Of a stretch of 64,000 bases of DNA, positions 250 to 63,772 are shown piece by piece. Origin of the DNA: Tridacna crocea (taxonomy: Eukaryota > Mollusca > Bivalvia > Cardiida > Cardiidae); contig OX031064.1 in assembly GCA_943736015.1 (NCBI GenBank), forward strand, positions 59,379,861 through 59,443,860, given 5' to 3'. Within the stretch, counting starts at the first letter, position 1. Each line of letters opens with the position of its first letter. The position numbers were made by a program, and so were the translations under genes. The notes beneath the pieces were generated by a model, which did not search any database, was not told the DNA's origin, and was given only the letters and a program-made list of their open reading frames with translations.

Positions 250-602
250 TTAAGCCTTTGCCACACAATGCCGACTTTTTACGACCCTTGGAAAGAAGCC
301 TTTTGAAAACATTGTGGGAAAAGAAGAAAATGCTGGTAACCAGCATTTTCTCCTTTACCCACAATGTTTTCTACTCTGCTGGGAAAAAAATTCAATTTTT
401 GAGTTGCATTTTGTTTTGTCATCTGCAAATGCTTTCAATTTTGACAAGCCTGAAAATTTGTAACCAGCATTTTCTTCTTTTCTCACAATGTTTTCTACCC
501 AGCTGGGAAAAAATTTCTATTTTTTGAGTTAATTTTGTTGTCTGCAAATTAATACTTTCAATTTAAACAAGACTTGATTTTGTCATCTTGTAAAGAGTTC
601 AA
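250..602 (+). mobile_element. TTAA MITE, family A, with internal duplication
   Basis: Family A definition: TTAA, L arm of about 60 bp (starts CCCATTACCACACAATCCC), hairpin core with arms like GTGGGAAAAGGAGAAAATGC around GGTAACC, R arm of about 105 bp (ends TTTGTCGTTTGGTAATGAG), TTAA. This copy is enlarged because the second half of the hairpin and start of R are repeated (about 343-400 and 461-520). The right TTAA has decayed. Confidence 0.7.
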
Positions 603-973
603 CTCAAGGTAGCTGTTAATTGTCTCAAGAGAATCTATAACAGAAGGCCAGGTAACTCAAAATACTTTTACACAGTTATCCCCCTTTTTTACTTCATATT
701 GTCTCTCAGATAGCAACAGTTACTGCAGCCCAACATTTACACCTGCATGCGGTACTTTTGTTTTTTTCTGTAACAAAGTATGCCCTTTTGTGCATCATTC
801 AGATATTGGTCAATGTGCTTATTACCTGCAGATCAGAATTGCTTCCAATGTATTGCTCATACAGGTATCTCTGCCAGATAAATGTATAAGGCAATTCCAT
901 ATAGGAAATATACAAAGGCTAGATTCTTGCATGTTTTTTACCTTTCCTCTGTCTTTTCATGTAATTCTTCAAG

Positions 974-1069
974 GAAGTTTATGAAGAACCTGATGTACCA
1001 GCTCTCCCTGTTAACAAATCAAGAGACAAAAAGGGGAAGAAACCCTCCCCACCTCCTGAACCTGATCAA
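974..1069 (+). CDS. Adaptor exon, YEEPDVP motif 1
   Basis: Visible residues 1-32, beginning EVYEEPDVPALPVNKSRD and ending PPPEPDQ. Acceptor TTCTTCAAG, donor CAA|GTAAGG. Phase 0-0. The Y-E-E-P core is a YxxP-type SH2-docking motif of the kind phosphorylated in SLP-76; the tail is lysine- and proline-rich. It is the first of four homologous exons. Confidence 0.8.
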
Positions 1070-1136
1070 GTAAGGATGTGTACATTCTGGTGTCTTTTGA
1101 ATTTAATACTTATTAACACTTTACAACAAAACCAGT

Positions 1137-1365
1137 TTAACCCATTACCACACAATCCCTACTTTTCACGACACCGAGGAAGAAGCCTTTAGAAAACATT
1201 GTGGGAAAAGGAGAAAATGCTGGTAACCAGCATTTTCTCCTTTTCCCACAATGTTTCTAATCTTCACAAAACCCATTTCAAATTTTTCAGTCTTTTTTAT
1301 TTTGTCGTCTGCAAATGCTTTCGATTTGGATAAGCCTAAAATACTGTTGTTTGGTAATGAGTTAA
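1137..1365 (+). mobile_element. TTAA MITE, family A, complete
   Basis: Both TTAA ends intact (1137-1140, 1362-1365). Core symmetric around GGTAACC. Lies 67 bp after the donor of the first visible exon. Confidence 0.88.
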
Positions 1366-1561
1366 ATGTCTCTTGGGAATAACCCTTTGGAAAACATCGA
1401 GGGAAAGGAAGAAATTGCTGATTAATATCTTTTTTTATTCTCTGTATTTCTAATTTTTATCTGTCTAATGTCTGTCCGTCCATCCATTTCGATGACTCTG
1501 GCTAATAAAATTAGTCTTTGATAAAAATAGAAAACAGTGTAGGTAAAGGAGAATATTCTGG

Positions 1562-1787
1562 GTAACCCTTTGCCACATGAACCCGACTTTTAATGACCCT
1601 GTGAAATAAAGCTTGTGAAAACATTGTGGGAAAAGGAGAAAATGCTGGTAACGGTAGCTGGTAACAATATTTCTTACCCTTCCCAAAACATTTTTTGAGT
1701 GTTGAGTCAGATTTACCAGTAGTTTTTTGTCTGCAAATGCTTTCAATTTGAAAAAGTCCAAAATTTTGTTGTTTGCTAAAGAGTTAA
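1562..1787 (+). mobile_element. TTAA MITE, family A, older copy
   Basis: Left end mutated (GTAACCC), right TTAA at 1784-1787. The hairpin centre carries a short repeat of GGTAAC and the right stem is mutated. Confidence 0.75.
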
Positions 1788-1878
1788 ACACATTTTCTCT
1801 TTTCCAACAATATTTTCAAGAGCCTTCTCTTCCTTTGTTGTTAAATCTCTACTATTATATATCATAAATCTTAACCTT

Positions 1879-2107
1879 TTAACTCATTACCAAACAACAA
1901 TATTTTAGACTGGTCCAAATTGAAAGCATTTGCAGACGACAAAATAAAAGTGATTGAAAATTTGAAACTTGCTTTGGGAAGAGTAGAAAACATTGTGGGA
2001 AAAGGAGAAAATGCTGGTTACCAGCATTTTCACCTTTTCCCAAAGTGTTTTCTGAAGGCTTCTTTCTCAGGGTCGTCAAATGTAGGGATTGTGTGGTAAT
2101 GGGTTAA
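1879..2107 (-). mobile_element. TTAA MITE, family A, chain member 1 of 3
   Basis: Reverse orientation (R arm first). Its right TTAA at 2104-2107 is also the left end of the next copy. Confidence 0.88.
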
Positions 2108-2332
2108 CTCTGCTACACAATGCTGACTTTTCACAACCCTGCCGGAAAGATGCCTTTCAAAACCATTGTCGTAAAAAAAGAAACTACTGTGTACCAGCAT
2201 TTTCTCCTTTTCCCAGAATGTTTTCTTCCCATCAAAGAAAATGTGCTGTCATTTTAGCAATACTGATATTGTCGTCTGCAAATGCCTTCAATTTGGACAG
2301 TCCTAAATATCTGTTGTTTGGTAATAGCTTAA
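2104..2332 (+). mobile_element. TTAA MITE, family A, chain member 2 of 3
   Basis: Forward copy between two reverse copies. It shares single TTAA tetramers with both neighbours. More diverged than they are (CTGCTACACAATGCTGAC). Confidence 0.85.
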
Positions 2333-2557
2333 CCCTTTACCAAACAACAAAATTCTAGACTGGTCCGAATTAAAGGCATTTGCAGATGACAAAATAAAAG
2401 TGACTGAAAATTCGAAATTTGTTTTGTGAAGGGTAGAAAACATTGTGGGAAAAGGAGAAAATGCTGGTTACCAGCATTTTCTCCTTTTCCTACAGTGTTT
2501 TCAAAAGGCTTATTTCTCAGGGGCGTCAAAAGTAGGGATTGTGTGGTAATGGGTTAA
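2329..2557 (-). mobile_element. TTAA MITE, family A, chain member 3 of 3
   Basis: Reverse copy closing the chain. Ends at TTAA 2554-2557. Right stem has CCTACAGTG where the left has CATTGTGGG. Confidence 0.85.
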
Positions 2558-2651: not shown

Positions 2652-2889
2652 TTAACCCATTACCACACAATCCCTACTTTTGACGCCCCTGAGAAAGAAG
2701 CTTTTTGAAAACACTGTGGGAAAAAGGAGAAAATGCTGGTAACCAGCATTTTCTCCTTTTCCCACCGTGTTTTCTACCCTTCCCAGAACAAATTTCAATT
2801 TTTCAGTCACTTTTACACTTTTATTTTGTAGTCTGCAAATTCCTTCGATTTGGACCAGTCTAAAATTTTGTCATTTGGTAATGAGTTAA
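2652..2889 (+). mobile_element. TTAA MITE, family A, complete
   Basis: TTAA at both ends. Core with ACACTGTGGG on the left and CCCACCGTGT on the right. Ends 89 bp before the exon at 2979. Confidence 0.87.
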
Positions 2890-5500: not shown

Positions 5501-5772
5501 TGGAGGCATTTGCAGATGACAAATGAATCTCAAATGACTGAGTTTTCTGTCAGAAAAAAGGAAAGAAAACTTTGTGGTTAAACAAGGAGACAGCTTTTTG
5601 AAAACCTTGTGGGAACAGAAGAAAATGCTGGAAACCAGCATTTTCTCCTTATTCTGTCATATTTTCTTACCTACGAAACAGAGAAATCATCGTTTAATCA
5701 ACATTGAAAATGTTGTCTGCATTTACATTCAATTTGGAAAGTCTAAAGTTTTGTCATTTGGTAAAGAGTTAA
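5501..5772 (+). mobile_element. Two fused family A MITE fragments
   Basis: A short reverse R arm (about 5503-5577) runs straight into a forward copy lacking its first 40 bp. The forward R arm ends in TTAA at 5769-5772, shared with the next copy. Confidence 0.65.
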
Positions 5773-5997
5773 CTTTTTACCAAACGACAAAATTCAGGCC
5801 TAGACCAAATTCAAAGCATTTGCAGACAACATATTAAATGTAGCTAAACAGACGACTTCGGTATGTGATAGGGTAGAAAACATTGTGGGAAATGGAGAAA
5901 ATGCTGGTTAACAGCATTTTCTCCTTTTCCTACAATGTTTTCAAAAGACTTCTTCCCCAGGGTCATTAAAACTTGGGATTGTGTGGTAAAGAGTTAA
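5769..5997 (-). mobile_element. TTAA MITE, family A, complete
   Basis: Shares TTAA 5769-5772 with the preceding fragment; right TTAA 5994-5997. Hairpin centre GGTTAACA, slightly broken. Ends 124 bp before the exon at 6122. Confidence 0.85.
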
Positions 5998-6330: not shown

Positions 6331-6599
6331 TTAACCCTTGCCCATACAACGAATTTTTAGACTGCTTCAAAATCAAAACATCTGCAGAATGACAAATTCA
6401 GAATTGGTACAAATGAGCTTATGCACTCTGATCATAGGTTTGAAAACATTGTGGGAAAAGATGAAAATGATGGTTACCAGCACAATGTTTTCTGCTCTTC
6501 AAATGTCAAGTTACAATTTTTGAGTCATGTTTATTTTGTCATCTGCAAATGCGTTCAGTTTGGACAAGTCTAAAATTTTGTCATTTGGTGAAGAGTTAA
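6331..6599. mobile_element. TTAA MITE, R-hairpin-R isomer
   Basis: Both outer arms are R type (GACAAATTCAGAATTGG on the left, its counterpart on the right), so the whole 269-bp element is one long imperfect palindrome. The core is shortened to GATGGTTACCAGCA. Confidence 0.75.
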
Positions 6600-8146: not shown

Positions 8147-8160
8147 TACTTTCTTATCAG

Positions 8161-9660: not shown

Positions 9661-9888
9661 TTAACCTTTTCCCAAACAAGTCCTGGTTTTTACATGTCTG
9701 CAGTACAAGTCTTTTGAAAACACTGTGGGAAAAGGAGAAATTGCTCGTAACGAGCAATTTCTCCTTTTCCCACAGTGTTTTCTACCTTTTAGGAAAACTT
9801 TCTACCATTTTCATCAAATTTAAGATTGTTGTCTGCAAAGTCTTTCAGTTTGGAAGAGTCTAAATTTTGTCTTTTGGGAAAGGGTTAT
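9661..9888 (+). mobile_element. TTAA MITE, subfamily with GAGCAATTTCTCC core
   Basis: Starts TTAACCTTTTCCCAAACAAG, core GAAATTGCTCGT/ACGAGCAATTTC, ends GGGAAAGGGTTAT. It joins an A-type outer stem to the family B inner stem. Same subfamily as 24835-25062. Confidence 0.8.
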
Positions 9889-9915: not shown

Positions 9916-10146
9916 CTTACCTTTACCACACAATCCCGACTTTTAACACCGCTGTGAAATAAGCCCTTTGAAAACATTATGGGAAAAGGAGAAAATGCTG
10001 GTTACGTAACCAGCATTTTCTCCTTTTCCCACAATGTTTTCTTTCCGCCAAAACAAATTTCAATTCTTTAGTTATATTTATTTTGTTGTCTGCAAATGCC
10101 TTCAATTTGGACCAGTCCAAAAATTTGTCATTTGGTAAAGAGTAAA
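9916..10146 (+). mobile_element. TTAA MITE, family A, worn ends
   Basis: Both TTAA tetramers mutated. Core enlarged by a repeated GTTACGTAAC centre. R arm complete. Confidence 0.78.
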
Positions 10147-11105: not shown

Positions 11106-11333
11106 TTAACCTTAACCACACAATGATGACTTTTAATGCTCTTTAGGAAGAAGCCTTTTGAAAACATTGTGGGAAAAGGCGAAAATGCTGGTAACCAGCA
11201 TTTTCTCCTTTTCCCACAAAGTTTTCTACCCTATGAAAGCAAAACTGCACCATTTGAGCCACTTAAAAATTATTATCTGCAAATGCTTTCAATTTGGATT
11301 GGTCTAAAATTTTACTGTGTGGTAACGGATTAA
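11106..11333 (+). mobile_element. TTAA MITE, family A, complete
   Basis: TTAA at both ends. Core with GGCGAAAATG on the left and CCACAAAGT on the right. R arm has a TTTTACTGTGTGG variant end. Confidence 0.85.
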
Positions 11334-11428: not shown

Positions 11429-11657
11429 TTAACTCTTTACCACACAATCCCAAGTTTTAACGACCCTGAGAAAGAAACCTGTTGAAAACACTGCGGGAAA
11501 AGGAGAAAATGCTGGTAACCAGCATTTTCTCCTTTTCCCACAGTGTTTTCTACCCTTCCCAAACCAAATTTTAATTTTTCATTCACCTTTATTTTGTCAT
11601 CTGCAAATGCTTTCAATTTGGACCAGTCTAAAGTTTTCTCGTGTGGTAAAGAGTTAA
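11429..11657 (+). mobile_element. TTAA MITE, family A, complete
   Basis: TTAA at both ends. ACACTGCGGG/CCCACAGTGT stem with one mismatch. R arm ends CTCGTGTGG instead of CGTTTGG. Confidence 0.88.
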
Positions 11658-11749: not shown

Positions 11750-11978
11750 TTACCCTTTCCCAAACAGTCCCTAGTTTTAAAGACCATTAGAAGAAAGTTT
11801 TTGATAGAGAAGTGGGAAAAGGAGAAAATGCTGGGAATCAGAATCTTTTGCTTTTCGCATAATGTTTCTACTCTTTTACACCCAAATCTCACAATAACAA
11901 CCAAAAATAAAATTGTCATCTGCAAGTATGCTTTTAGTATAGAGAACACCAAAATTTTGTTGTTTGGTAAAAGGTTAA
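11750..11978 (+). mobile_element. Family A MITE, diverged
   Basis: Left end TTTACCC. The core has lost its symmetry (GCTGGGAATCAGAATC). Right TTAA at 11975-11978. Confidence 0.72.
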
Positions 11979-12493: not shown

Positions 12494-12722
12494 TTAACCC
12501 TTTACTCCGTATGGCATTTCTATGGTATCTCTGATTGACTGAAAATAACAGCAAGGACGAAGCTGTTTTTTATGGGTATATGACAGCTTTTGATAGCATA
12601 GAAAACATTGTGACAAAAGGTGAAATTGCTCTTCACGAGCAATTTCACCTTTTGTCACAATGTTTTCCAAAGGCTCCTACAAGCAATGCATAGAAATGAG
12701 TATCTATGGAGTAAAGGGTTAA
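12494..12722 (-). mobile_element. TTAA MITE, family B
   Basis: Family B: TTAA, ends CTCCATAGATACTC and CCCCATAAGGCATTTC, core stem TTGTGNCAAAAGGTGAAATT. 229 bp. Both stem arms here share TGACAAAAG/CTTTTGTCA in place of the common GGC/GCC version. It ends 31 bp before the YLDM exon at 12754. Confidence 0.87.
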
Positions 12723-13499: not shown

Positions 13500-13728
13500 T
13501 TAACCCTTTACTCCATAGATACTTATTTCTACATGTTGCTTGTAGGAGCCTTTGGAAAACATTGTGGCAAAAGGTGAAATTGCTCGTGACGAGCAGTTTC
13601 ACCTTTTGTCACAATGTTTTCTATGCTATTGAAAGGGGTCATTAACACATAAGAAACAGCTTCATCCTTGCTTTTATTTAGGGTCAATTCGAGATACCAT
13701 AGAAATGCCTTATGGGGTAAAGGGTTAA
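13500..13728 (+). mobile_element. TTAA MITE, family B, complete
   Basis: TTAA 13500-13503 and 13725-13728. Core centre GCTCGTGACGAGC. The right TTAA is shared with the next family A element. Confidence 0.87.
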
Positions 13729-14473: not shown

Positions 14474-14746
14474 TTTACTCGTTACCAAATGACAAAATTG
14501 TCGACTGGTCCAAATCGAAAGCATTTGCAGACAGCAAACAAAATTAATATGACTGAAACATTGAAATTTAGTTACCGAAGAGTACAAAACATAGTGGAAA
14601 AAGGAGAAAATGCTGGTTACCAGCATTTTCTCCTTTTTCCACAATGTTTTCTAAAGGCTTCAATCTCAGAAGTCGGGATTTTGTGGAAAATAGTTACCTT
14701 TTTCAGTGAGATATTAGTTAAGTTTTCCTGTGTGGTAACGAGTTAA
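14474..14746 (-). mobile_element. Family A MITE with 40-bp insert in L arm
   Basis: Left end mutated, right TTAA 14743-14746. Core clean, with both stems GTGGAAAAAGG/CCTTTTTCCAC. About 40 extra bp interrupt the L arm near 14695-14730. Ends 30 bp before the YLDM exon 14777. Confidence 0.78.
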
Positions 14747-15042: not shown

Positions 15043-15271
15043 TTAACCCATTACCACACAATCCCAACCTTTGACGCCCCTGAGAAAGAAGCCTTTAGAA
15101 AACATTGTGGGAAAAGGAGAAAATGCTGGTAACCAGCATTTTCTCCTTTTCCCACAATGTTTTCTACCCTTCACAAAACAAATTTCAAAATTTCAGTCAC
15201 TTTTATTTTGTCATCTGCAATTCCTTTCAATATTGACAGACCTAAAATTTTGTGGTTTGGTAATGGGTTAA
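15043..15271 (+). mobile_element. TTAA MITE, family A, complete
   Basis: TTAA at both ends. Clean hairpin core (GGTAACC centre). R arm altered to GTGGTTTGG near its end. Confidence 0.88.
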
Positions 15272-15376: not shown

Positions 15377-15545
15377 ATTTATTTTTGTGCCAAACAACAG
15401 AATTTTGGATTTTTCCAAAATTGACAGCACTGACAGACAACAAAATAGTGCTGGTCATCTCCTTTATTTCCTTTCTGTTTTCACTATGTTTTCCAAAGCC
15501 TCCTCCATCAGAGTAGTTAAAACAGATTATTTGAAAATGTTTTAA
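15377..15545 (-). mobile_element. Family A MITE remnant
   Basis: R arm recognisable from GCCAAACAACAGAATTTTGG. Core and L arm strongly worn. Ends in the TTAA that opens the next copy. Confidence 0.55.
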
Positions 15546-15760
15546 CCCGTTACCACACAGCAAAATTTTAGAACCTATCTAAATTGAAAGCATCTGCAGA
15601 CGACAATTTCAAAGTGGTTCCGATGGTGGAATTTTGCTTTGATAGGGCAGAAAACATTGTGGGAAAAGGAGGAAATGCATTTTCTACTTTTCCCACAATG
15701 TTTTCTAAAGGTTTCTCTCTCAGGGGCATCAAAAGTAGGGACTGTGTGGTAATGGGTTAA
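15542..15760 (-). mobile_element. TTAA MITE, family A, short core
   Basis: TTAA 15542-15545 and 15757-15760. The hairpin tip is deleted (GAGGAAATGCATTTTC). Right TTAA shared with the next element. Confidence 0.83.
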
Positions 15761-15984
15761 TTCTCTACCAAGCAACAAAATTTTGGGCTACACCAAATTG
15801 AAAGGAATCGTGGAAGACAAATTTAATGTTGCCAAAATGATGATTTTTGTCTTTTATAGACTAGAAAACTTTGTGGGAAAAGGAGAAAATGCTGGTTACC
15901 AGCATTTTCTCCTTTTCCCACAATGTTTTCAAAAGGCTTCTATCTCAGGGTCATAAAACCAGGGATTGTGTGGTAAAAGGTTAA
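15757..15984 (-). mobile_element. TTAA MITE, family A, complete
   Basis: Shares 15757-15760 with its neighbour; ends at TTAA 15981-15984. Clean core (GGTTACC centre). Confidence 0.86.
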
Positions 15985-15989: not shown

Positions 15990-16222
15990 TGAAGCCTCTC
16001 CCAAATGAAAAAAGAGTAGATCCAAATTGAAAGAACTTGTACAAAAAAATTTAGAATTGGCACATAGGAACTGTAAAGTTCTTTGACAGATCAGAAAACA
16101 ATGTTGTAATAGGAGAAAATGCTGATTACCAGATTTTCTCCTTTTACCACAATGTTTTTAAAAGGTCTCTTTCTCACTTCCTCAGGGTCGTGAAATCACA
16201 GGATTGTTTTGTAAATGGTTAA
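15990..16222 (-). mobile_element. Family A MITE, diverged
   Basis: Begins CCTCTCCCAAATG. Core worn (GTTGTAATAGG). The L arm holds a doubled CTCACTTCCTCAGG. Right TTAA 16219-16222. Confidence 0.68.
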
Positions 16223-16228: not shown

Positions 16229-16434
16229 TTAACTCTTTATCAAACAACAAAATTTTTAACTGGTCCAAGTTGAAAGCACTTGCAGACAACAAAATAAATG
16301 TATCTCAAAACTTGAACTTTGTTCCCAGCAGGGTAGAGAACATTGTTGGCAAAGGAAAAAATGCTGGTTACAATGTTTTCAAAAGGCTTCTATCTCATGG
16401 TCATAAAAACCAGGGATTGTTTGGTAAAAGGTTA
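16229..16434 (-). mobile_element. TTAA MITE, family A, half hairpin
   Basis: TTAA at both ends, but the right stem is deleted after GCTGGTTAC, so no hairpin forms. Confidence 0.8.
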
Positions 16435-16624: not shown

Positions 16625-16852
16625 TGACCCTTTACAGAATTTTAGCCTTGGTCTAAATTGAAAGCATTTGCAGACAAGTTTTTCAGTTTCAGTGTTGCTC
16701 AAAAGGTGCACTTTTTTTTTATAGAGTAAAAAAACATTGTGAGAAAAGGAGAAAATGCTAGTAACCAGCATTTTCTCCTTTTCTCACAATGTTTTCAAAA
16801 GCCTTAAGTCTCAGGAGTGTTAAAAGTCATCATTGTGTGGTAAAGGGTCAAG
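16625..16852 (-). mobile_element. Family A MITE, stem variant GTGAG
   Basis: Ends worn to TGAC/TCAA. Both stems carry the same change (TTGTGAGAAAAGG and CCTTTTCTCACAA). Confidence 0.78.
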
Positions 16853-17744: not shown

Positions 17745-18023
17745 TTAACCCTTTATAACATAATCACAAGCCTGGATAACCTTCAGGATAATGCCCTTTA
17801 ACTCATTACCAAACAACAAAATTTTAGGTTTGTCCAAATGAAAGCACTTGCAGATGGCAAAATAAAAGTGACTGAAAATTTTGAATTTCTTTTGTGAAGG
17901 GTAGAAAACATTGTGGGAAAAGGAGAAAATGCTGGTTACCAGCATTTTCTCCTTTTTCCATAATGTTTTCTAAAGTCTTTTTCTCAGGGTCATCAAAAGT
18001 AGAGATTGTGTGGTTATGGGTTA
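17745..18023 (-). mobile_element. Family A MITE plus abutting L-arm fragment
   Basis: A 53-bp worn L arm (17745-17797) runs into a complete reverse copy from TTAA 17798-17801 to TTAG 18020-18023. Its core is intact. Confidence 0.75.
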
Positions 18024-18310: not shown

Positions 18311-18507
18311 TCAACCCTTTACTCCATAGATACTCATTTCTATTCTTTGCTTGTAGGAGCCTTGCTCATCATGAGCAATTTCACCTTTTGCCACAATGTT
18401 TTCTACACTATCAAAAGGTGTCATACACATAGGAAACAGCTTCATCCTTGCTCTTATTTAGGGTCAATTAGAGATACCATAGAAATGCCTTATGGGTAAA
18501 GGGTTAA
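18311..18507 (+). mobile_element. TTAA MITE, family B, one stem deleted
   Basis: The left half of the hairpin is lost (GGAGCCTTGCTCATCATGAG). Right stem and R arm complete to TTAA 18504-18507. Confidence 0.8.
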
Positions 18508-18609: not shown

Positions 18610-18835
18610 TCAACTCTTTTCTAAACGCCAAAGTTTTTACTACTCAAAATTGAAAACATTTTCAGATGACAAATTCAAAGAATCTTGAATGATGTTTCTG
18701 TGTTTGATGAAGTATAAAGCATTGTTCGAAAAGGAGAAAATGCTTGTATCAAGCATTTCCTCCTTTTCCTAGAATGCTTTCGAATGCTCCTTTTCTCAGT
18801 TTCATTAAAAGCGGATTATGTTGGAAAAGGGTTAA
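18610..18835 (-). mobile_element. Family A MITE, diverged
   Basis: Left TCAA, right TTAA. Core with GCTTGTATCAAGC tip, a new symmetric sequence unlike the usual GCTGGTTACCAGC. Confidence 0.72.
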
Positions 18836-18884: not shown

Positions 18885-19089
18885 TTAGCTCTGTACCAGG
18901 TGGCAACATTCAAGACTGGTCCAAATTGAAGCATTGTGGCTCAGATGATGTGATTTGTCCATGAAAGGGTCGAAAACATTGTTGGAAATACAGAAAATGC
19001 CAGCAGTATTTTCTTTTTCCACAATGTTTTTGATAGCGACCTATCAGAGGGTCATTGAGAAAATTTAAGATCATTTGGTAAAGTGTTAA
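18885..19089 (-). mobile_element. Family A MITE, old
   Basis: Worn throughout. R arm CAAGACTGGTCCAAATTG is the best-kept part. Right TTAA 19086-19089. Confidence 0.65.
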
Positions 19090-19966: not shown

Positions 19967-20192
19967 TTAACCCATTACCACTCAGTTCCTACCTTTGATG
20001 CCCCTGAGAAAGAAGCCTTTTGAAAACACTGTAGGAAAAGGAGAAAATGCTGGTAACCAGCATTTTCTCCTTTTCCCACAGTGTTTTCTACCCATCCAAG
20101 AACAAATTTAAATCTTTCAGTCACTTTTATTTTGTCTGCAAATGCTTTCAATTTGGACAAGTCTAAAATATTGTCCTCTGGTAATGAGTTAA
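19967..20192 (+). mobile_element. TTAA MITE, family A, complete
   Basis: TTAA at both ends. ACACTGTAGG/CCCACAGTGT stem. Ends 65 bp before the exon at 20258. Confidence 0.87.
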
Positions 20193-20553: not shown

Positions 20554-20808
20554 TTAACTCATTACCAAAAGGCAATATTTTAGACAAGTCCAAATTGAAA
20601 GCATTTGCAGACAACAAAATAAAAGTGACTGAAAATTTGAAATTTGGTTTGTGAAGGGTAGAAAACATTGTGGGAAAAGGAGAAATGCTGTTACCAGCAT
20701 TTTCTCCTTTTCCCACAATGTTTTCTGAAGGCTTCTTTCTCAGGGGTGTCAAAAGAAGGCTTCTTTTCCAGGGGCGTCCAAAATAGGGATTGTGCGGTAA
20801 TGGGTTAA
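20554..20808 (-). mobile_element. TTAA MITE, family A, L arm partly duplicated
   Basis: GGCTTCTTTCTCAGGGG appears twice in tandem near 20732-20775. TTAA at both ends; the right one is reused by the next fragment. Confidence 0.82.
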
Positions 20809-21254: not shown

Positions 21255-21281
21255 CTAACAAAGAAACACTTTTATTTCCAG

Positions 21282-21605: not shown

Positions 21606-21839
21606 ACCCTTTACCATCTACCAAAGGACAAAACTTTAGACTGGTCCAAATTGAAGGCACTTGCAGATGGCAAAATAAACATAACTGAAAAAATTTAGAT
21701 TTGTTTCTAGCAGGGTAAAAAACATTGTGAGAAAAGGAGAAAATGCTGGTTACCAGCATTTTCTCTTTTTCCCACAATATTTTCAAAAGGCTTCTATCTC
21801 AGGGTTGTAAAAACCAGGGATTGTTTTGTAAAGGGTTTA
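21606..21839 (-). mobile_element. Family A MITE, complete with worn ends
   Basis: Starts GACCCTTTACC, ends GTAAAGGGTTTAG. Stem GTGAGAAAAGG on the left, CCCACAATA on the right. Confidence 0.75.
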
Positions 21840-22149: not shown

Positions 22150-22557
22150 TGTATTCACCAACCATTTTTGAGAATATTCTTAGTCTTATTCTTCAGAATT
22201 ATGTCAATGTGAAAGTAACAGGACCTCTGATTGGTTTAACCAAATGGTTTAGCCAATCAGAGGTCCTGTTACTTTCACGGCCAGAAGAATAAGACCAAGA
22301 ACATTCTTAACCCATTACCACTCAATCCCTACTTTTGACACCCCTGAGAAAGAAGCCTTTTGAAAACACTGTAGGAAAAGGAGAAAATGCTGGTAACCAG
22401 CATTTTCTCCTTTTCCCACAATGTTTTCTACCCTTCCCAGAACAAATTTCAAATTTTCAGTCACCTTTATTTTGTCGTCTGCAAATGCTTTCAATTTGAA
22501 CCAGTCTAAATTTTGTCGTGTGGTAATGGGTTAAGAATGGTTGATGAATACGGGCCC
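22150..22557. repeat. Palindromic repeat family P, interrupted by a MITE
   Basis: Stem 22150-22310 with AACAGGACCTCTGATTGG and its inverse, then after the insertion GAATGGTTGATGAATACGGG. The insertion point is the TTAA in ACATTCTTAAGAATGG. Confidence 0.85.
22307..22534 (+). mobile_element. TTAA MITE, family A, inside palindrome P
   Basis: TTAA 22307-22310 and 22531-22534 duplicate the single TTAA seen at the same place in the uninterrupted P copy at 17118-17291. Core clean. Confidence 0.93.
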
Positions 22558-23304: not shown

Positions 23305-23508
23305 TTAGCTCATTACCAGATGACAACCCTAATCCTAAACCTGACCCTAACCCTAGTCTTTTAGGCTAGTCCAAATCGAAAGCATTTGAAGACGACAAAA
23401 TAAAAGTGGCTTAAAATTTACCAGCATTTTCTCCTTTTCCCACAATGTTTTCCAAAGGCTTCTTTCTCTAGAGTTGTCAAAGTAGGGATTATTGTGGTAA
23501 TGGGTTAA
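23305..23508 (-). mobile_element. Family A MITE with telomere-like insert
   Basis: TTAG/TTAA ends. CCCTAATCCTAAACCTGACC and following CCTAACCCTAG (23328-23358) replace part of the R arm. The left core stem is deleted. Confidence 0.75.
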
Positions 23509-23733
23509 CTCATTACCAAACGACAAAATTTTAGACTGGTCCAAATTGAAAGCATTTGCAGATGACAAAATAAACGTGACTGAAAATTTGAAATTTGTTT
23601 TGTGAAGGGTAGAAAACATTGTGGGAAAAGGAGAAAATACTGGTTACCAGCATTTTCTCCTTTTCCCACAATGTTTTCTAAAGGCTTCTTTCTCAGAGGC
23701 GTCAAAAGTAGGGATTGAGTGGTAATGGGTTAA
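23505..23733 (-). mobile_element. TTAA MITE, family A, complete
   Basis: Shares TTAA 23505-23508 with the previous copy. Clean core (one change, AATACTGGTTACC). A 45-bp R-arm end fragment follows directly to TTAA 23771-23774, 24 bp before exon 23799. Confidence 0.87.
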
Positions 23734-24834: not shown

Positions 24835-25062
24835 TTAACCTTTTCCCAAACACAAATTTTGGACTCTTCCAAACCGAAAGAGTTTGCAGACGACAATTTT
24901 AGATTTTGAGAAAATGGCAGAAAGTTCTCAAAAAGAGTAGAAAACACTGTGGGAAAAAGGAGAAATTGCTTGTTACGAGCAATTTCTCCTTTTCCCACAG
25001 TGTTTTCAAAGGACTTTTACAGCAGACATGTAAAAACCAGGGCTTGTTTGGGAAAGGGTTAA
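24835..25062 (-). mobile_element. TTAA MITE, GAGCAATTTCTCC subfamily
   Basis: Reverse relative of 9661-9888, with clean TTAA ends and both outer stems ACACTGTGGG/CCCACAGTGT. R arm begins CCTTTTCCCAAACACAAATT. Confidence 0.87.
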
Positions 25063-25485: not shown

Positions 25486-25708
25486 TTAACCCATTACTAC
25501 ACAATCCCTACTTTTGACAACGTGAGAAAGAAGCCTATATAAAACATTGCGGGAAAAGGAGAAAATGCTGGCTACAAGCATTTTCTCCTTTTCCCACAAT
25601 ATTTTCTACCCTGTCAATAAAAAATTATTTGAGCCACATTGAAACTTTCGTCTGCAAATGCTTTCAGTTTGGACTGGTCTAAAATTTCTTTGAGTGGTAA
25701 AGGGTCAA
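25486..25708 (+). mobile_element. TTAA MITE, family A, chain member 1 of 3
   Basis: Left TTAA, right TCAA (25705-25708), the latter shared. Stem ACATTGCGGG/CCCACAATAT. Core tip GCTGGCTACAAGC. Confidence 0.8.
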
Positions 25709-25913
25709 CTCTTTGCCAGACAGAATTTTAGCCTGGTCCAAATTGAAAGTATTTGCAGATGACAATTTAAATGTGATTCAAATACAGGGTAGAAAACATT
25801 GTGGGAAAAGGAGAAAATGCTAGTAACTAGCATTTTCTCCTTTTCCCACAATGTTTTCCAATGGTTTCTACCTCCATGGTGCTAAAAGTTGTCATTGAGT
25901 GGTAAATGGTTAA
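25705..25913 (-). mobile_element. Family A MITE, chain member 2 of 3
   Basis: Core tip GCTAGTAACTAGC is changed symmetrically on both sides. R arm shortened. Right TTAA 25910-25913 shared. Confidence 0.8.
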
Positions 25914-27045: not shown

Positions 27046-27252
27046 TTAACCCTTACCCAAATGACAAATTTTAGACTGTACCAAACTCAAAGTGTTTGCA
27101 GATGACAATTTTGAATTTGATGAGAATGACAGAAAGTTTTCTGATAGGCTAGAAAACACTGTTGAAAAAGGAGAAATTGCTCGTTACAAGGGTTTTCTAA
27201 AGACTTCTACTGCAGACATGTAAAAAGCGGGGCTTATTTGGGAAAGAGTTAA
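27046..27252 (-). mobile_element. TTAA MITE, GAAATTGCTCG subfamily, right stem deleted
   Basis: TTAA at both ends. After GAAATTGCTCGTTACAAG the second stem is missing. Shares its right TTAA with the next copy. Confidence 0.8.
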
Positions 27253-27462
27253 CCCATTACCACACAATCCCTACTTTTGACGCCCCTTTTAAAAACACTG
27301 TGGGAAAAGGAGAAAATGCTGGTAACCAGCATTTTCTCCTTTTCCCAGTGTTTTCTACCCTTTCCAGAACAAATTTCAATTTTTCAGTCACCTTTATTTT
27401 GTCATCTGCAAATGCTTTCAATTTGGACCAGACTAAATTCTTCTTGTGTGGTAATGGGTTAA
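27249..27462 (+). mobile_element. TTAA MITE, family A
   Basis: L arm lacks GAGAAAGAAGCC. ACACTGTGGG stem; the right stem is short (CCCAGTGT). TTAA ends intact. Confidence 0.85.
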
Positions 27463-29970: not shown

Positions 29971-29980
29971 GTATGCTCAG

Positions 29981-38779: not shown

Positions 38780-39006
38780 TTAACCCATTACCACACAATC
38801 CCTACTTTTGACGCCCCTGAGAAAGGAGCCTTTAGAAAACATTGTGGGAAAAGGAGAAAATGCTGGTAACCAGCATTTTCTCCTTTTTCCACAAAGTTTT
38901 CTACCCTTCACAAAACAAATTTCAAATTTTCAGTCACTTTTATTTTGTTGTCTGCAAATGCTTTTGATTCGGACACATCAAAAATTTTGTTTTGGTAATG
39001 AGTTAT
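38780..39006 (+). mobile_element. Family A MITE in spacer S copy 2
   Basis: Duplicate of 36512-36738, not an independent insertion. Confidence 0.85.
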
Positions 39007-40789: not shown

Positions 40790-41022
40790 TTAACCCTTTA
40801 TCACACAATGACAAATTTGACGAATGACCCTGAGAATAAAGCCTTTTGAAAACATTGTGGGAAAGAGGAGAAAATGCTAGTAACCAACATTTTCTCCTTT
40901 TTCGCACAATGTTTACCTAACTTCCTAAACAATTTTCAATTCTTTAGTCAGATTAATTTTGTCATCTGCAAATGCTTTCAATTTGGACCAGTCACAATAT
41001 TTGTTGTTTCGAAATGGGTTAA
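40790..41022 (+). mobile_element. TTAA MITE, family A
   Basis: TTAA ends intact. Core GCTAGTAACCAAC. Right stem TTTTTCGCACAATG. Confidence 0.84.
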
Positions 41023-41269: not shown

Positions 41270-41549
41270 CTAACTCTTTACCATACAACAAAATTTCAGA
41301 CTGGTCCAAATTGGAAGCACTTGCAGATGACAAATGAAATGTACCTCAAAAATTGTAATTTGTGTCCAGCAGGTTAGAAACATTATGGGAAAGGAGAAAA
41401 TGTTGGTTACCAGCATTTTCTTCTTTTCCAAAATGTTTTCAACTCTTCCAAAAACAAAATAATTTCAAGTTTTGAATAATTTTTATTTTGTCATGAAAAT
41501 GTTTTAAATTTGGACTAGTCTAGAATTATGTCATTTTGTAAAGAGTGAA
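41270..41549. mobile_element. TTAA-type MITE, R-hairpin-R isomer
   Basis: Both arms are R type (CAACAAAATTTCAGACTGG on the left, its counterpart ending TCATTTTGTAAAGAG on the right). Ends worn to CTAA and TGAA. Confidence 0.72.
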
Positions 41550-41804: not shown

Positions 41805-42033
41805 TTAACTCTTTACCAAACAACAAAATTTTAGACTGGTTCAAATTGAAAGCATTTGCAGGCGACAAAATACAGTTGATTGAAAAATTGAAATTTGTTC
41901 TGGGAAGGGTAGAAAACACTGTGGGAAAAGGAGAAAATGCTGGTTACCAGCATTTTCTCCTTTTCCCCCAGTGTTTTCAAAAGGATTCTTTCTCAGGGGC
42001 CTCAAAAGTAGGGATTGTGTGGTAATGGGTTAA
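41805..42033 (-). mobile_element. TTAA MITE, family A, complete
   Basis: TTAA at both ends. ACACTGTGGG/CCCCAGTGT stem. Confidence 0.87.
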
Positions 42034-42459: not shown

Positions 42460-42688
42460 TTAACCCTTTACCAAACAATCCCTGGTTTTTACGACCCTGA
42501 GATAGAAGCCTTTTGAAAACATTGTGGGAAAAGAAGAAAATGCTGGTAACCAGCATTTTCTCCTTTTCCCACAATGTTTTCTACCCTGCTGGAGTCAAAT
42601 TAGAATTTCTGGGTTACGTTTATTTTGTTGTCTGCAAATGCTTTCAATTTGGACAAGTCTAAAATTTTATCATTTGGTAAAGGATTAA
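42460..42688 (+). mobile_element. TTAA MITE, family A, complete
   Basis: TTAA at both ends. Its R arm provides TTTATT at 42619-42624, an AATAAA on the minus strand about 290 nt after the sulfotransferase stop. Confidence 0.86.
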
Positions 42689-44283: not shown

Positions 44284-44500
44284 TTAACCCTTTACCAAAC
44301 AATATCGGTTTTTATGATCCAGAGGAAGAAACCTTCTGAAAACATTGTTGGAAAAGGAGAAAATGCTGGTTACCAGCATTTTCTCCTTTTCCAACAATCT
44401 TTCTACTCAAGTTTCAATTTTTGGGTCACCTTTATTTTGTTGTATGCAAATGTTTTCAATTTGGCCAAATCTAAAATTTTGTTGTTTGGTAAAAAGTTAG
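44284..44500 (+). mobile_element. Family A MITE, stem variant TTGTTGG
   Basis: Both stems carry ATTGTTGGAAAAGG / CCTTTTCCAACAAT. Left TTAA, right TTAG. Confidence 0.83.
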
Positions 44501-44758: not shown

Positions 44759-44986
44759 TCAACCCTTTACTCCATAGATACTCATTTCTATGCACTGCTT
44801 GTAGGAGCCTTTGGAAAACATTGTGGCAAAAGGTGAAATTGCTCATCACGAGCAATTTCACCTTTTACCACAATGTTTCTACACTATCAAAAGGTGTCAT
44901 ATACACATAAGAAACAGCTTTATCCTTGCTGTTATTTAGGGCCAATTAGAGATACCATAGAAATGCCTTATGGGGTAAAGGTTTAA
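44759..44986 (+). mobile_element. TTAA MITE, family B
   Basis: Left TCAA, right TTAA 44983-44986. Core GCTCATCACGAGC. Confidence 0.85.
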
Positions 44987-45053: not shown

Positions 45054-45268
45054 TTAACTCTGTACCAAACATCAAAATTTTAGACTGGTCCAAATTGAAA
45101 GCACTTGCAGATGACCAAATGTACTTAACTGAAATTGAATTTTTTTCCAGCGGCATAGAAAACAACATAGGAAAAGGAGAAAATGCTGACTTCTTTTCCC
45201 ACAATGTTTTCAAAAGGCTTCTATCTAAAAGGGTTTTAAAAACCAGGGCTTGTTTGGTAAAGTATTAA
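45054..45268 (-). mobile_element. TTAA MITE, family A, hairpin tip lost
   Basis: TTAA at both ends. The core jumps from GAAAATGCTGA to CTTCTTTTCCC. Preceded by an R-arm tip at 45004-45053. Ends 127 bp from the exon 45395-45542 donor. Confidence 0.8.
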
Positions 45269-45689: not shown

Positions 45690-45919
45690 CTAAACCCTTT
45701 ACCCCATATGGCATTTCTATGGAATCTCTAATTGACCCTAAACAATAACAAGGATGAAGCCATTTCTTATGTGCATATGAAACCTTTTGATAGCAAAGAA
45801 AACATTGTGGCAAAAGGTGAAATTGCTCGCCACGAGCAATTTCACCTTTTGCCACAATGTTTTCCAAAGGCTCCTGCAAGCAATGCGTAGAAATGAGTAT
45901 GTATGGAGTAAATGGTTAA
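45690..45919 (-). mobile_element. TTAA MITE, family B
   Basis: Left TAAA, right TTAA 45916-45919. Core GCTCGCCACGAGC. Confidence 0.84.
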
Positions 45920-46271: not shown

Positions 46272-46499
46272 TATAACCCTTCACTAAATGACAATATTTG
46301 AGGCTTGTCCAAATCAAAAGCATTTGCAGACAACAATAAAAGTAAATGAAAACTTGAAATTTGTTTTGTGAAGAGAAGAAAACATTTTGGGAAAAGGAGA
46401 AAATGCTGACTACCAGCATTTTCTCCTTTTCCCACAATGTTTTCAAAAAGCTTCTCTCTCAGGGTCATCAAAAGTAGAGATTGTGCAGTAATGGGTTAA
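46272..46499 (-). mobile_element. Family A MITE
   Basis: Left ATAA, right TTAA 46496-46499, 48 bp from the exon 46547-46703 donor. Core GCTGACTACCAGC. Confidence 0.82.
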
Positions 46500-46752: not shown

Positions 46753-46961
46753 TTAATCCTTTACCAAACAATCCCTGGTTTTTACGACCCTGAGATAGAA
46801 GCCTTTTGGAAACTTTGTGGGAAAAGGAGAAAATGCTGGTGACCACAATGTTTTCTACCCTGCTGGAAACAAATTTCAACTTTTGAGTTGCGTTTATTTT
46901 GTTGTCTGCAAGTGCTTTCAATTTGGACCAGTCTAAAATTTTGTCATCTGTAAAGAGTTAA
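46753..46961 (+). mobile_element. TTAA MITE, family A, right stem deleted
   Basis: TTAA at both ends. Sequence passes from GCTGGTGACC directly to ACAATGTTTTC. Starts 50 bp upstream (minus sense) of exon 46547-46703. Confidence 0.82.
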
Positions 46962-49013: not shown

Positions 49014-49242
49014 TTAACCCTTTACCCATCACTTGAAACGACTCTGAAAATCAAGCTTTTAACAACATCGAGAGGAGAGGAGAAATTGCAACCGGAAACC
49101 GGCACTGTTTTCATTTAACCTCGATGTTTCTACCGTATCAAGAACAAATTTCGTCGCTAATTTGGGCCACCCTGAATTTGTCATCTGCATGAATCAGTGC
49201 TTTCAACTTAGTCTGGAATTTCTTTGTCAGGTAAAGAATAAA
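49014..49242 (+). mobile_element. Family A MITE, very old
   Basis: TTAACCCTTTACCCATCAC, core ACATCGAGAGG with CCGGAAACCGG tip, R arm GAATTTGTCATCTGCATG. Heavily mutated, so this region is older than most of the window. Confidence 0.6.
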
Positions 49243-52553: not shown

Positions 52554-52751
52554 TTAACTCGTTACCAAGCAACAAATTTGTAGATCGCAACTAATTAAAT
52601 GTGGTTTACATGATGATAGTTGTCTTGAAAGGGTATAAATTAAACACTGTGCGAAAACAAAATAAAATCTGATAAAAGCATTTTCTCTTTTTTCCACAAT
52701 GTTCTCAAACCTTTGTTCATTAAAACTTTGAAATGTATGATAAAAGGTTAA
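52554..52751 (-). mobile_element. Family A MITE, diverged
   Basis: TTAA at both ends. R arm CTCGTTACCAAGCAACAAAT. Core worn (TCTGATAAAAGCATTTTC). Confidence 0.68.
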
Positions 52752-61385: not shown

Positions 61386-61740
61386 CACACTTCCTCTGTG
61401 TGAAAGTATAAGAAGATGGATACTCTTTATCATCTTGTAAACATGCACACACACCCAATTCACTGTTGGATAAAATTTCAGTTTCTTGAACATATAGGTA
61501 CAAACTCTTTACCATCTTACAAAAAAAACAATGAAGTTTACATGCTAAAGAGTTTAGAGAAAAGGAAAGAATTACTTTTTCCGCAATGTTTGCAATAGCT
61601 TTCTTCCTCAGTGACTACAAAACTTAGCACCGTATGCTGCAGATAAAGTTCAAGTTTTTCAGACACTGAAAAATCAAATAAATAGAAACTCTTTCCCATC
61701 TTTAATATAAAATGGTAAGGAGTTTCGGAAAAATTGCTAT
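61386..61740 (+). repeat. Degenerate satellite edge
   Basis: Two to three strongly diverged units (ACTCTTTACCATCTTAC, TTTCTTCCTCAGTGACTAC, AAAATGGTAAGGAGTTT). Confidence 0.65.
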
Positions 61741-62384
61741 TAATTCAAAATCAAAGGGCTTGTGGAAAAGGCTAGATTTATTTTGCAGATGTACGAAAGA
61801 AATCATTTGATATGTATCATTATAGAGTTTTAGAAACATTTTCATGATCAGAATTTTGAAAAGATCAGATTTCACGGCCTTGTCAGATTCCCCTGCTAGA
61901 AATTCCCGGGGTTTTTTGGTAGCGGACGAAAAATAGTTCGCATGTTGAACATGTGTTTTTTTATGTTTCCAAGATGAAAAACTGTTTGCATGACATCTTA
62001 AATTTAAAACTATGAGGAATTACATTACGCTGTATACTTCTAACAATATTAAATAGCCGCATTCAATTTCTTTCAAACCGTACAACCATCGAAAACTAAA
62101 AAGATAAAAAAATCGCCTGACCATTTTAGTTCGACCCCAAATTTTACGACATTCTCCTTTATAGAGAGTATCAAATTTTCCCGGCTTATGTTTGCGCACA
62201 CTAAAAGCAGGGCCCAGTGTTTAGAAAAGTTAAGTATATTCTGCGGGTATATTTGTGTGTGTATGTAAAAACATTCACCACTGTGTGATGATGGGTTCTG
62301 TCATTGCATTTGATGAGGATAAAGCCAATAATTTAGTAATGTGAAGAGTTTACATTAAGATAAGACTGCATATGTGGAAGCTGA
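61741..62384. other. Nothing recognised
   Basis: Single-copy-like sequence with no exon of the sulfotransferase and no repeat match. Confidence 0.45.
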
Positions 62385-62512
62385 TTCAAAATTTCATCAA
62401 TGTGAAAGTGACAGACTTGATCGCGATTTTCTGGCTGTGAAAGTAACAGAACTTCTGACTGGCTAAACTAAATGGTTTGTCCAATCAGACGTCCTGTCAC
62501 TCTCACGTTGAA
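62385..62512. repeat. Palindromic repeat family P, partial
   Basis: TGTGAAAGTAACAGAACTTC, then GGCTAAACTAAATGG and its inverse. Flanking ends missing. Confidence 0.65.
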
Positions 62513-62960
62513 GTCTTGTATTGCTCCTGGTTGCACCACCAGGACTTGGCTTGTGACATCTTACTAAAAGATTCTGAATTTTTCCTTGTGAACACTTTCA
62601 CACATAAGACTAGTTATCCTCAGCTACTACCCCAGGGTCACCATGTAAACCTTTACCAAACGATCTTATGTTTTCATAACAAAGAGGAGAAAGGTTTTTA
62701 AACATAACAGTAAGGAAGAAAATGCTAATAACCAGCAATATATGTCCTATCTAGATGTAACACACAAACAACCATAATAGTGAAGCACATGATCATAAAG
62801 GGAGACAAATCATAACAAATATATGCCTAGAAATACCAGAGTCAACTCCCTTCTTAAAGAATATTAGCATAACTCTTGGGCTGCCTAGCCCGACTCAAGG
62901 GCCTTTTGCAGAAAGAGTAAATCACGATCAGACTGCACAGAACATGCAAAACACTGTCCG
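62513..62960. other. Mostly unrecognised, with a MITE fragment
   Basis: A broken family A element (L arm and first core stem) at about 62644-62745, and a GATCAGACTGCACAGAACAT repeat fragment near 62927. Confidence 0.45.
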
Positions 62961-62964
62961 ATAT

Positions 62965-63162
62965 GATATTTGCTTACCAACCATTCTTGAGAATATTGTT
63001 AGTTTTATTCTCCAAGGTTTTACTAATTTTGTAAGTAACACAACTTCTGATTGACTAAACCGACTGGTTTAGCCAATCAGAAGTTGCCTTACTTACAAAT
63101 TTAGAAAATTCTGGAGAATAAGATAAAGATCGTTCTTAAGAACAGTTGGTGAATACAGGCCC
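62965..63162. repeat. Palindromic repeat family P, full copy
   Basis: CCAACCATTCTTGAGAATAT to GTTCTTAAGAACAGTTGG and GAATACAGGCCC. Stem with AACTTCTGATTGACTAAACC and its inverse. Confidence 0.78.
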
Positions 63163-63254
63163 TGGTGAAATAAACTTTGAAGTCACAATATTTGGGGTTT
63201 ACTTCGGAGTAGAAATTTCTGTTTCATTCATTTAGCAACTTAAAGGTTAATGTT

Positions 63255-63474
63255 TTAACCCTTTCCCAGATAAGCCCTGGTTTTTACGGCTCTGTGGCTG
63301 AAGCCATTTGAAAACACTGTGGAACAAGGAGAATAATGGGTATTTTCTCCATTTTCCACAGTGTTTTCTTTCCTTACAGATTAAAATACCATCTCTTCAG
63401 CCACTCTTAATCTGTCATCTGCAAATTCTTTCAATTTCAGCAGTCCAAAATTACCTCATGTGGTAAAGAGTAAA
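63255..63474 (+). mobile_element. TTAA MITE, family A
   Basis: Left TTAA, right worn. Core tip deleted (GAATAATGGGTATTTTC). ACACTGTGGAA/TTCCACAGTGT stem variant, matched on both arms. Confidence 0.78.
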
Positions 63475-63543
63475 AGGTCTACCAGATGAACTTACACAAC
63501 AAACTGGGCATCCTTATGCCTAATGGTTTCACAGAAGACATTT

Positions 63544-63772
63544 TTAACCCATTACCACACAACCCCTACTTTTGATGCCCCTGAGAAAGAAGCCTTTAGA
63601 AAAAATTGTGGGAAAGGGAGAAAATGCTGGTTTCCAGCATTTTCTCCTTTTTCCACAATGTTTTTTACCCTTCACAAAACAAATTTCAAATTTTCAGTCA
63701 CTTTTATTTTGTCGTCTGCAGTTTCTTTCAATTTAGAAAAGTCTAAAATATTGTCGTTTGGTATTGAGTTAA
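63544..63772 (+). mobile_element. TTAA MITE, family A, complete
   Basis: TTAA at both ends. Core tip GCTGGTTTCCAGC. Confidence 0.86.

Follow-up and report, generated by a model that had tools for sequence, protein, structure and literature searches.

Short non-autonomous elements that can be compared with the one reported here have been described in several animals. In the haemoglobin genes of Lucina pectinata, the accessible part of PMC4732748 describes a "consensus sequence 1" that resembles our element in having a 210-bp length, a 30-bp imperfect terminal inverted repeat and a 77-bp self-complementary centre and in occurring in introns and promoters, and reports similar fragments in other molluscs. 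Unlike our element, it is presented there with no target duplication identified and without a genome copy number, and is likened to rice MITE-adh type B; the likeness to the Tridacna element is one of descriptions, not of sequences. The Xenopus T2-MITE/Kolobok elements, as portrayed in PMC6004289, are likewise non-autonomous, TTAA-targeting, long-lived and among the predominant MITEs of their host, but carry an AGGRR terminal motif. Alu is also a short non-autonomous element, with copies on the order of a million (PMC3660474); unlike ours, it is an RNA-mediated copy-and-paste SINE.

Here we report the analysis of a 64,000-bp stretch of Tridacna DNA (the window) that is densely populated by one short repeat. 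With a probability of about 0.8, we read it as part of a family of ~227-bp TTAA-inserting MITEs, mobilised by a piggyBac-type transposase and present in about a million copies, whose palindrome is kept symmetric in the source copies. A non-autonomous DNA transposon (MITE) of this kind would insert at TTAA and duplicate it, and a piggyBac-type transposase, to judge from the CCC[AT]TTACCA-type tips, would most likely have cut and pasted it in trans. In the source copies, palindrome symmetry would probably be held by hairpin or template-switch copying of the arms together with inversion, while copies, once inserted, would decay mainly through changes in one or the other arm. What is extraordinary is the abundance, and it is found in a known kind of element, a similar intron element having already been described in Lucina pectinata (PMC4732748).

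Copies in the window and across the genome

Using an iterated nhmmer profile (E<=1e-3), we identified 118 non-redundant copies of one 227-bp element in the window, 57 on the plus and 61 on the minus strand, which together cover 20,890 of 64,000 bp (32.6%). The copies comprise 58 full-length and 60 partial ones, the partial copies lying between the full ones; the consensus length is 227-229 bp. After recalibration for comparability with the other samples, the window holds 115 copies (32.4%), and its first six 10-kb bins range from 15 to 48% coverage. The copies are short (227 bp), noncoding, similar in length and dispersed, as is characteristic of MITEs; the window has 118 of them and the 200 kb of randomly sampled DNA 182. 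The full-length copies and associated features are as follows.

250..63771, no strand: region with all 118 MITE copies (profile search)
1138..1364, +: full MITE
1563..1786, +: full MITE
1880..2106, -: full MITE
2330..2556, -: full MITE
2653..2888, +: full MITE, served as query for the genome DNA search
5770..5996, -: full MITE, TTAA in common with left neighbour
6332..6598, +: full MITE
9662..9887, +: full MITE, subfamily II
9920..10143, +: full MITE
11110..11332, +: full MITE
11430..11656, +: full MITE
11752..11977, +: full MITE
12495..12721, -: full MITE, subfamily III
13501..13727, +: full MITE, subfamily III
14477..14696, -: full MITE
15044..15270, +: full MITE with paralogous empty sites
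15097..15165, +: example hairpin core (DNA folding)
15543..15759, -: full MITE
15758..15983, -: full MITE, TTAA in common with neighbour
15995..16221, -: full MITE
16230..16434, -: full MITE
16628..16848, -: full MITE
17799..18023, -: full MITE
18313..18506, +: full MITE, subfamily III
18612..18834, -: full MITE
18886..19088, -: full MITE
19968..20191, +: full MITE
20555..20807, -: full MITE
21613..21837, -: full MITE
22308..22533, +: full MITE with paralogous empty sites
23506..23732, -: full MITE, best profile match
24836..25061, -: full MITE, subfamily II
25487..25705, +: full MITE
25707..25912, -: full MITE, symmetric two-arm change and loop T
27047..27251, -: full MITE
27250..27461, +: full MITE, TTAA in common with neighbour
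27504..27724, +: full MITE
29746..30018, +: host-gene open stretch, part of SH2 domain, BLNK/SLP-76-like
29982..30204, -: full MITE, subfamily III
31113..31331, -: full MITE, subfamily III
31493..31718, -: full MITE
32639..32866, -: full MITE
32883..33109, +: full MITE
33329..33555, -: full MITE
36513..36737, +: full MITE within duplicated unit
38781..39005, +: full MITE within duplicated unit
40791..41021, +: full MITE
41271..41546, -: full MITE
41806..42032, -: full MITE
42461..42687, +: full MITE
44285..44499, +: full MITE
44761..44985, +: full MITE, subfamily III
45055..45266, -: full MITE
45693..45918, -: full MITE, subfamily III
46274..46498, -: full MITE
46754..46960, +: full MITE
49015..49237, +: full MITE
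52555..52750, -: full MITE
63256..63471, +: full MITE
63545..63771, +: full MITE

The element ends in TTAA followed by CCC[AT]TTACCA-type tips (written out, TTAACCC[AT]TTACCACACAA), and its terminal inverted repeats match at 17 of the first and last 19 consensus bases, TTAA included. TTAA lies within 8 bp of both ends in 34 of the 58 full copies, of one end in 19 and of neither in 5, with a chance expectation of 9.5% per end; its absence from one or both ends in 24 of the 58, which speaks against our reading, is put down to decay. The core is a near-perfect palindrome of 67 bp, made up of two 33-bp arms and one loop base; about 50 bp separate it from the left tip and about 105 bp from the right one. 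Folded as DNA, a core from the window gives -38.5 kcal/mol (z = -16).

Across the 1.049-Gb genome, exact 31-nt core patterns occur 191,599 times, and the reversed control gives 0. In a random sample of 20 stretches of 10 kb, the coverage averages 16.1% (95% interval 11.7-20.6), with 182 copies in 200 kb and as much as 40.2% in a single stretch; the reversed and block-shuffled decoys of this sample gave 0 matches. The number of copies in the genome is estimated at about 0.95 million from the random sample and at 1.6 million by ratio. The exact cores set a floor of 191,599, and sampling puts the copies on the order of a million; this one MITE family would, by sampling, make up at least about a tenth of the genome and, as a very rough figure, a sixth or more. 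A search for the core in viral contigs and genome contigs, possibly without the element's own genome, gave 0 matches, and no MITE family of such copy number was found in the literature searched, which lay mostly outside subscription papers.

A preliminary description of this DNA had counted by hand about ninety TTAA-bordered units of ~228 bp with a hairpin core of ~65 bp, filling perhaps a third of the region, and these observations proved real, with 118 copies in place of ninety. It had also considered the density inside one gene exceptional. BLNK/SLP-76-like exons extend from about 965 to 30018, which shows a location inside one gene only in part. The claim of exceptional density finds no support in that form, the density being about twice the genome mean and in no separate class; the exceptional feature is the genome-wide abundance.

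Symmetry of the palindromic core

The cores of the subfamilies differ mainly by symmetric changes in both arms. Subfamily III was separated by whole-element clustering, and subfamily II was chosen by the same core sites that were then compared, which makes its 2/2 count partly circular. The loop base genome-wide is T in 2,842 and G in 769 cases (A-to-T 3.7 times A-to-G, among loops with A, T or G), and at one arm pair, also genome-wide, 15 symmetric changes were counted versus 3.7 expected, figures without a cross-pair control. The concerted changes of both arms between subfamilies, together with the A-to-T excess in the loop, suggest hairpin-mediated inversion or arm correction.

Some results weigh against this reading or do not bear it out. 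Without the pair 63/115, the arm-pairing excess in the main subfamily is 2.28, barely above the top of 16 slid controls (0.94-2.14), and complementary doubles are in excess in slid registers too, reaching 3.1-fold when all copies are taken and 2.1-fold within the main subfamily. The loop-T link amounted to 6/20 vs 10/92 in the initial set (p = 0.038) and was unspecific, with p = 0.02-0.03 for the slid controls at -5 and +5; it came to 10/44 vs 16/164 in a larger set restricted to loops with A or T (p = 0.036), and to 4/9 vs 8/108 in copies with few core changes, a subset picked afterwards (p = 0.006). Genome-wide, loop T was found in 4/19 symmetric copies vs 2,842/35,130 (p = 0.06), or in 3/18 (p = 0.17) when the window copy that prompted the test was left out.

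Selection, through binding of a dimeric transposase or host protein or through a functional hairpin RNA, all of them hypothetical, is a serious though somewhat doubtful alternative for the symmetry, and would leave the identity of the MITE unaffected. It fits the symmetric changes between subfamilies, and in piggyBac two C-terminal domains are described as binding a 19-bp palindromic end sequence (PMC11707139). However, the core of our element lies well inside its tips (~50 and ~105 bp), and selection alone does not predict the loop A-to-T excess, although a source copy with T in the loop could be another cause of that excess. Going beyond arm copying in source copies, the palindrome could conceivably act as a self-correcting module, which by folding in replication or transposition inverts the core or recopies an arm, and which has shaped the subfamilies and aided the rise to about a million copies. 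We consider this extension unlikely; if true, source copies would remain nearly perfectly palindromic over long times, and a hairpin step, not ordinary decay and selection, would govern the evolution of the subfamilies.

Mobilisation and insertion at TTAA

The preliminary description had named piggyBac or Kolobok as the source of mobility and had seen no transposase in the region. Its reading as a MITE with TTAA duplication and many genomic copies is supported, and no piggyBac transposase domain (PF13843) lies in the window among the 118 genome matches listed. CCC-type tips are a general rule of piggyBac elements. The element shares the TTAA target of this superfamily, and its tips are of the CCC type, like those of resident piggyBac elements.

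We inspected 30 of the 118 listed PF13843 matches, 20 of these over only 1 kb on the 3' side. A TTAACCC tip was assigned to the transposase element in 9 of the 30; another match, L043, showed TTAACCCTCT and was counted apart, and at 20 no tip other than MITE copies was recognised. In five of ten resident loci read on both flanks (L033, L036, L037, L038 and L040), an open PF13843 frame is enclosed by two TTAACCC tips that lie 2.6-2.9 kb from each other, and four of these five have CCC[AT]TT tips. The first 11 bp of L036 and L040 equal the MITE tip (TTAACCCTTTA), the maximum among resident tips. The resident elements thus have the TTAA target and TTAACCC tips in common with the MITE, and differ from it in their length, their transposase frame and tips that diverge after position 11 at the latest. 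The proposed search for an autonomous partner yielded piggyBac elements with TTAACCC tips, and an autonomous element with the full ACCACACAA tips was found at none of the 30 inspected among the 118 listed matches. MITE-tip-like sites beside L050, L052 and L057 were in fact flanking MITE copies, and a 492-aa transposase repeat between MITEs (L039/L047) was set aside as a composite partner, its similarity continuing to the end of the stretch examined without showing a border.

By tip type piggyBac is favoured: resident piggyBac elements carry TTAACCC tips, against the RR described for Kolobok. Mobilisation by Kolobok, a superfamily that likewise inserts at TTAA and is reported from bivalves (PMC10294476), is improbable for these MITEs, whose tips begin with CC or CT: RR is the terminal dinucleotide given for Kolobok, and the ten Xenopus TIR pairs of PMC6004289 are all stated to have AG ends. 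The CCC tips of the resident piggyBac elements also speak against it.

Paralogous (not orthologous) empty sites carrying one TTAA position were found for three copies (15044-15270 and 22308-22533 of the window, and L017:5946-6176). Among 13 paralogous alignments crossing the junction, 8 have an intact single TTAA and 5 a one-base variant; these three copies are therefore insertions with TTAA duplication, as first proposed, and not satellite units. Neighbouring copies abut within 6 bp in 24 pairs (13 from the window and 11 from the random stretches), 15 of which overlap on one TTAA position; every insertion would supply an extra TTAA beside the element, so that later copies could land against earlier ones. 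A dispersed satellite or spread by segmental duplication, with TTAA merely part of the unit, would accommodate these 24 pairs and the two copies at 36513..36737 and 38781..39005 duplicated within a tandem unit of ~2.27 kb, but is hardly credible given near-equal orientations in the window, equal strand counts genome-wide, occurrence in 19 of 20 random stretches and refutation by the empty sites for three copies. Tandem satellites, ruled out by empty sites and dispersal, and a total below a few hundred copies, far exceeded by the exact cores, were the outcomes that the preliminary description had named as fatal to its proposal.

Meaning of the abundance

The cut-and-paste class of transposons to which the preferred piggyBac-type reading assigns the element is not inherently replicative. 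With at least about a tenth of an animal genome of one gigabase to its name, a single gene-less 227-bp DNA transposon family would be on a par with human Alu in copy number. Two questions thereby become testable: by which route a TTAA-class MITE attains such an abundance, and what keeps the arms of a palindrome matched. Copies in the hundreds of thousands would allow both arm correction and inversion of the loop to be measured by counting.

Structure and genome-wide abundance of the TTAA-flanked MITE

The window was searched using nhmmer seeded with the copy at 2652-2889, with the profile rebuilt five times; copies were accepted at E<=1e-3 after overlap removal and counted as full length when their profile ends lay within 5 positions. 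We identified 118 copies of the gene-less MITE (57 plus, 61 minus), 58 of them full length, and these non-overlapping copies cover 20,890 bp, or 32.6%, of the window. Decoys obtained by reversing and block-shuffling a 200-kb random sample of the genome produced 0 matches to the profile. The 227-229-bp consensus starts with TTAACCC[AT]TTACCACACAAT and ends with ...GTTTGGTAA[AT]GAGTTAA, and 17 of the 19 outermost bases match between its terminal inverted repeats. Its 67-bp core has the structure GAAAACAYTGTGGGAAAAGGAGAAAATGCTGGT-A-(reverse complement), and no complementarity was found in the consensus between the segments separating the tips from the core. Among four stretches submitted to DNA folding, two window cores formed near-perfect hairpins (-38.5 and -38.2 kcal/mol, z ~ -16), and the other two, neither of which spanned a core, folded weakly.

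The window lies at G000:C9:59379861-59443860, about 405 kb from a contig end, in a genome of 1,048,827,098 bp. An exact 31-nt core pattern occurs at 191,599 genome sites (reversed control, 0), with 17 in the window vs 11.7 expected from the genome mean. For the random sample, 40 random 10-kb places were drawn on 14 contigs, kept off the outer 1 Mb of contigs with some contig extents being guesses, and the first 20 were used. They contain 182 copies, 76 of them full length, with at least one copy in 19 of the 20 stretches, and the MITE share of bases is 16.1% (bootstrap 95% 11.7-20.6%; stretch range 0 to 40.2%). Extrapolation gives ~0.95 million copies (0.69-1.23 million), ~0.40 million of full length. 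The sample is poorer in exact cores than the genome mean predicts (22 vs 36.5; P = 0.007); when exact cores serve as the scaling factor, the estimate becomes 1.6 million copies (1.07-2.9 million) and the MITE share of the genome ~27% (19-47%). We take the copy number to be of the order of one million and the genome share to be about a tenth or more. The first six 10-kb bins of the window have MITE shares of 15-48%, so the window is about twice as dense as the genome mean, yet random stretches reach comparable density.

Insertion at TTAA and candidate piggyBac transposases

TTAA was found within 8 bp of both ends, one end or neither end in 34, 19 and 5 of the 58 full window copies, and in 43, 28 and 5 of the 76 full random-sample copies, the chance expectation being 9.5% per end. 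Empty sites were sought by comparing the joined flanks of 106 copies having TTAA at both ends and sufficient flank with 354 kb of MITE-masked DNA, which gave 14 junction-crossing alignments from four copies. Thirteen are paralogous alignments through the junction, from window copies 15044-15270 and 22308-22533 and from L017:5946-6176, a copy elsewhere in the genome, and carry at the junction an intact single TTAA (8) or a one-base variant (5). The fourth case, copy 40791-41021, was left out for its gapped alignment at the junction. TTAA target duplication by the MITE thus has direct evidence, via paralogues and not orthologues. Neighbouring copies lie at most 6 bp apart in 24 cases, 13 of them from the window and 11 from the random sample; 15 such pairs have facing ends that overlap at a single TTAA, as expected if every insertion supplies new TTAA sites.

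Among the 118 genome matches listed for PF13843 (piggyBac DDE), many of which have open frames, none is within the window. Tips were read at 30 of these loci, 10 with both flanks (the 5' flank of L032 being short) and 20 in the 3' flanking 1 kb alone. TTAACCC tips stand at both ends of the frame in five of the 10 two-flank loci, being of the CCC[AT]TT type in L033, L036, L037 and L040, and CCCTAG/CCCTTG in L038; L036 and L040 belong to one kind of piggyBac element. Such a tip was found at one end of L035 and on the 3' side at L041, L045 and L051; L043, with a TTAACCCTCT site, is kept apart from the loci with recognised TTAACCC tips, and at the remaining 20 of the 30 no tip was recognised except those of MITE copies. 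Judged by sequence, the MITE tip class fits piggyBac. Resident tips such as TTAACCCATTTATGCC and TTAACCCTTTATATAC match the MITE tip up to 11 bp and then diverge, so the matching autonomous element is missing, extinct or outside the stretches read. Mobilisation by Kolobok is disfavoured, because Kolobok tips are described as following an RR rule (PMC6004289).

Loci L039 and L047, on C15 and C5 of G000, share a repeat with a 492-aa open piggyBac frame and MITE copies inside, 99.8% identical between the two contigs across 1,001 bp on the 3' side; five open 492-aa frames occur among the listed PF13843 matches. Clustered, mostly broken piggyBac transposase matches at G000:C8:56.71-56.76 Mb and C13:4.48-4.61 Mb are possibly local expansions.

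Subfamilies and paired changes in the core arms

In a set of 139 full copies (79 random and 60 window, one duplicate removed), divergence from the consensus has a median of 15.7% and a minimum of 5.7%. The main, second and third subfamilies comprise 117, 8 and 12 copies, with 2 unplaced, and the outer arms and tips of the second and third differ from those of the main one. Within the main subfamily, 28 copies have A at position 8 with the partner T at the other tip (mean divergence 8.0%), 57 have T with partner A (16.5%), and the rest are mixed (14 and 6) or other (12). Copies with the A...T state are younger than those with T...A, and the paired tip states imply that the tip change took place at both ends.

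The third subfamily, first split off by whole-element clustering (6 copies), differs from the main core at partner positions 69/109, 76/102, 81/97 and 86/92 of the two arms, changed on both sides with pairing retained, and shows a one-sided change at one site, 110 (7 of 12 copies). Two pairs, each changed symmetrically, set the second apart from the main core, although this subfamily was selected by those sites. Taking all 139 copies, 110 complementary double changes fall at partner positions vs 23.7 expected (4.6-fold; slid registers at most 3.1-fold), and within the main subfamily 41 vs 12.5 (3.3-fold; slid registers at most 2.1-fold), with pair 63/115 accounting for 16 of the 41. Distinct symmetric change types number 19 at the partner register vs 2-9 in ten slid registers. 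In a larger main-subfamily set (225 of 250 with core) taken without pair 63/115, the ratio is 62/27.2 = 2.28 vs 0.94-2.14 in 16 slid registers; by this measure the arm-pairing signal within the main subfamily is weak. Genome-wide arm counts cover the partner positions of pair 86/92, chosen since window copy 25707 carries it: exact counts are 32,288 unchanged, 363 left-only, 333 right-only and 15 symmetric vs 3.7 expected (P ~1e-5), copy 25707, with loop T, being outside the 15.

Published work credits template switching with fixing the pairing of stems (PMC8794818) and, in another account, with homogenising the arms of inverted repeats and inverting their spacer (PMC8604942). A core flipped relative to the outer arms would yield exactly a loop change from A to T. 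Genome-wide exact counts of the one-base loop, taken for A, T and G, are 32,288, 2,842 and 769, so that A-to-T is 3.7 times A-to-G; across MITE copies the transition/transversion ratio is 0.79, with transitions favoured per type. A source copy with loop T is an alternative cause of the A-to-T excess, and an association of symmetric arm change with loop T is not established.

Host gene, other repeats and related elements

Putative coding features in the window are as follows.
965-1189: open stretch with YE[DE]PD motifs
2979-3101: open stretch with YE[DE]PD motifs
6122-6322: open stretch with YE[DE]PD motifs
8140-8400: open stretch with YE[DE]PD motifs
21246-21434: further open stretch
29746-30018: partial SH2 domain (PF00017, E 1.6e-4)

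The sole solved chain matched by the SH2 stretch is B-cell linker 2eo6 (E 2.5e-4). Together, these open stretches and the partial SH2 domain point to a BLNK/SLP-76-like adaptor gene with MITE copies in its introns.

Several other repeats were observed in the window. A 185-bp tandem satellite (56961-61371; ~24 copies, 371-bp higher-order register) contains no MITE copy at E<=1e-3. A ~2.27 kb unit with 161-bp inner repeats stands in tandem at 34905-40662 (95.6-98.2% identity), and the same pair of MITE copies occurs in two units, which implies a duplication later than MITE insertion, or an assembly product. A second palindromic family with a different hairpin core and ends TCTTATTCTTC...GAAGAATAAGA occurs at 17131-17250, 22151-22310 and 63030-63168, with relatives in three stretches from elsewhere in the genome (L019, L029, L030); the TTAA MITE at 22308-22533 sits in the flank of one copy. 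A 145-bp tandem repeat with scattered related blocks (4384-5502, 19205-19797, 24061-24642) and a 155-bp tandem repeat (7068-7890; 5.3 copies, 88% alike) were also found.

A 210-bp MITE-like repeat is described from the haemoglobin genes of L. pectinata, where it sits in introns and promoters; its terminal inverted repeats span 30 bp and its palindromic centre 77 bp, and the same account found no target duplication and reports similar sequences in other molluscs (PMC4732748). By this published description the architecture is common to the T. crocea MITE, and the two may be of the same lineage. A bivalve study reports that MITEs make up a considerable part of the genomes of their hosts (PMC10294476). 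For scale, the 25 Stowaway families of rice together amount to ~20,000 copies and Alu to >1 million (PMC3660474), figures against which the present MITE copy number can be set.
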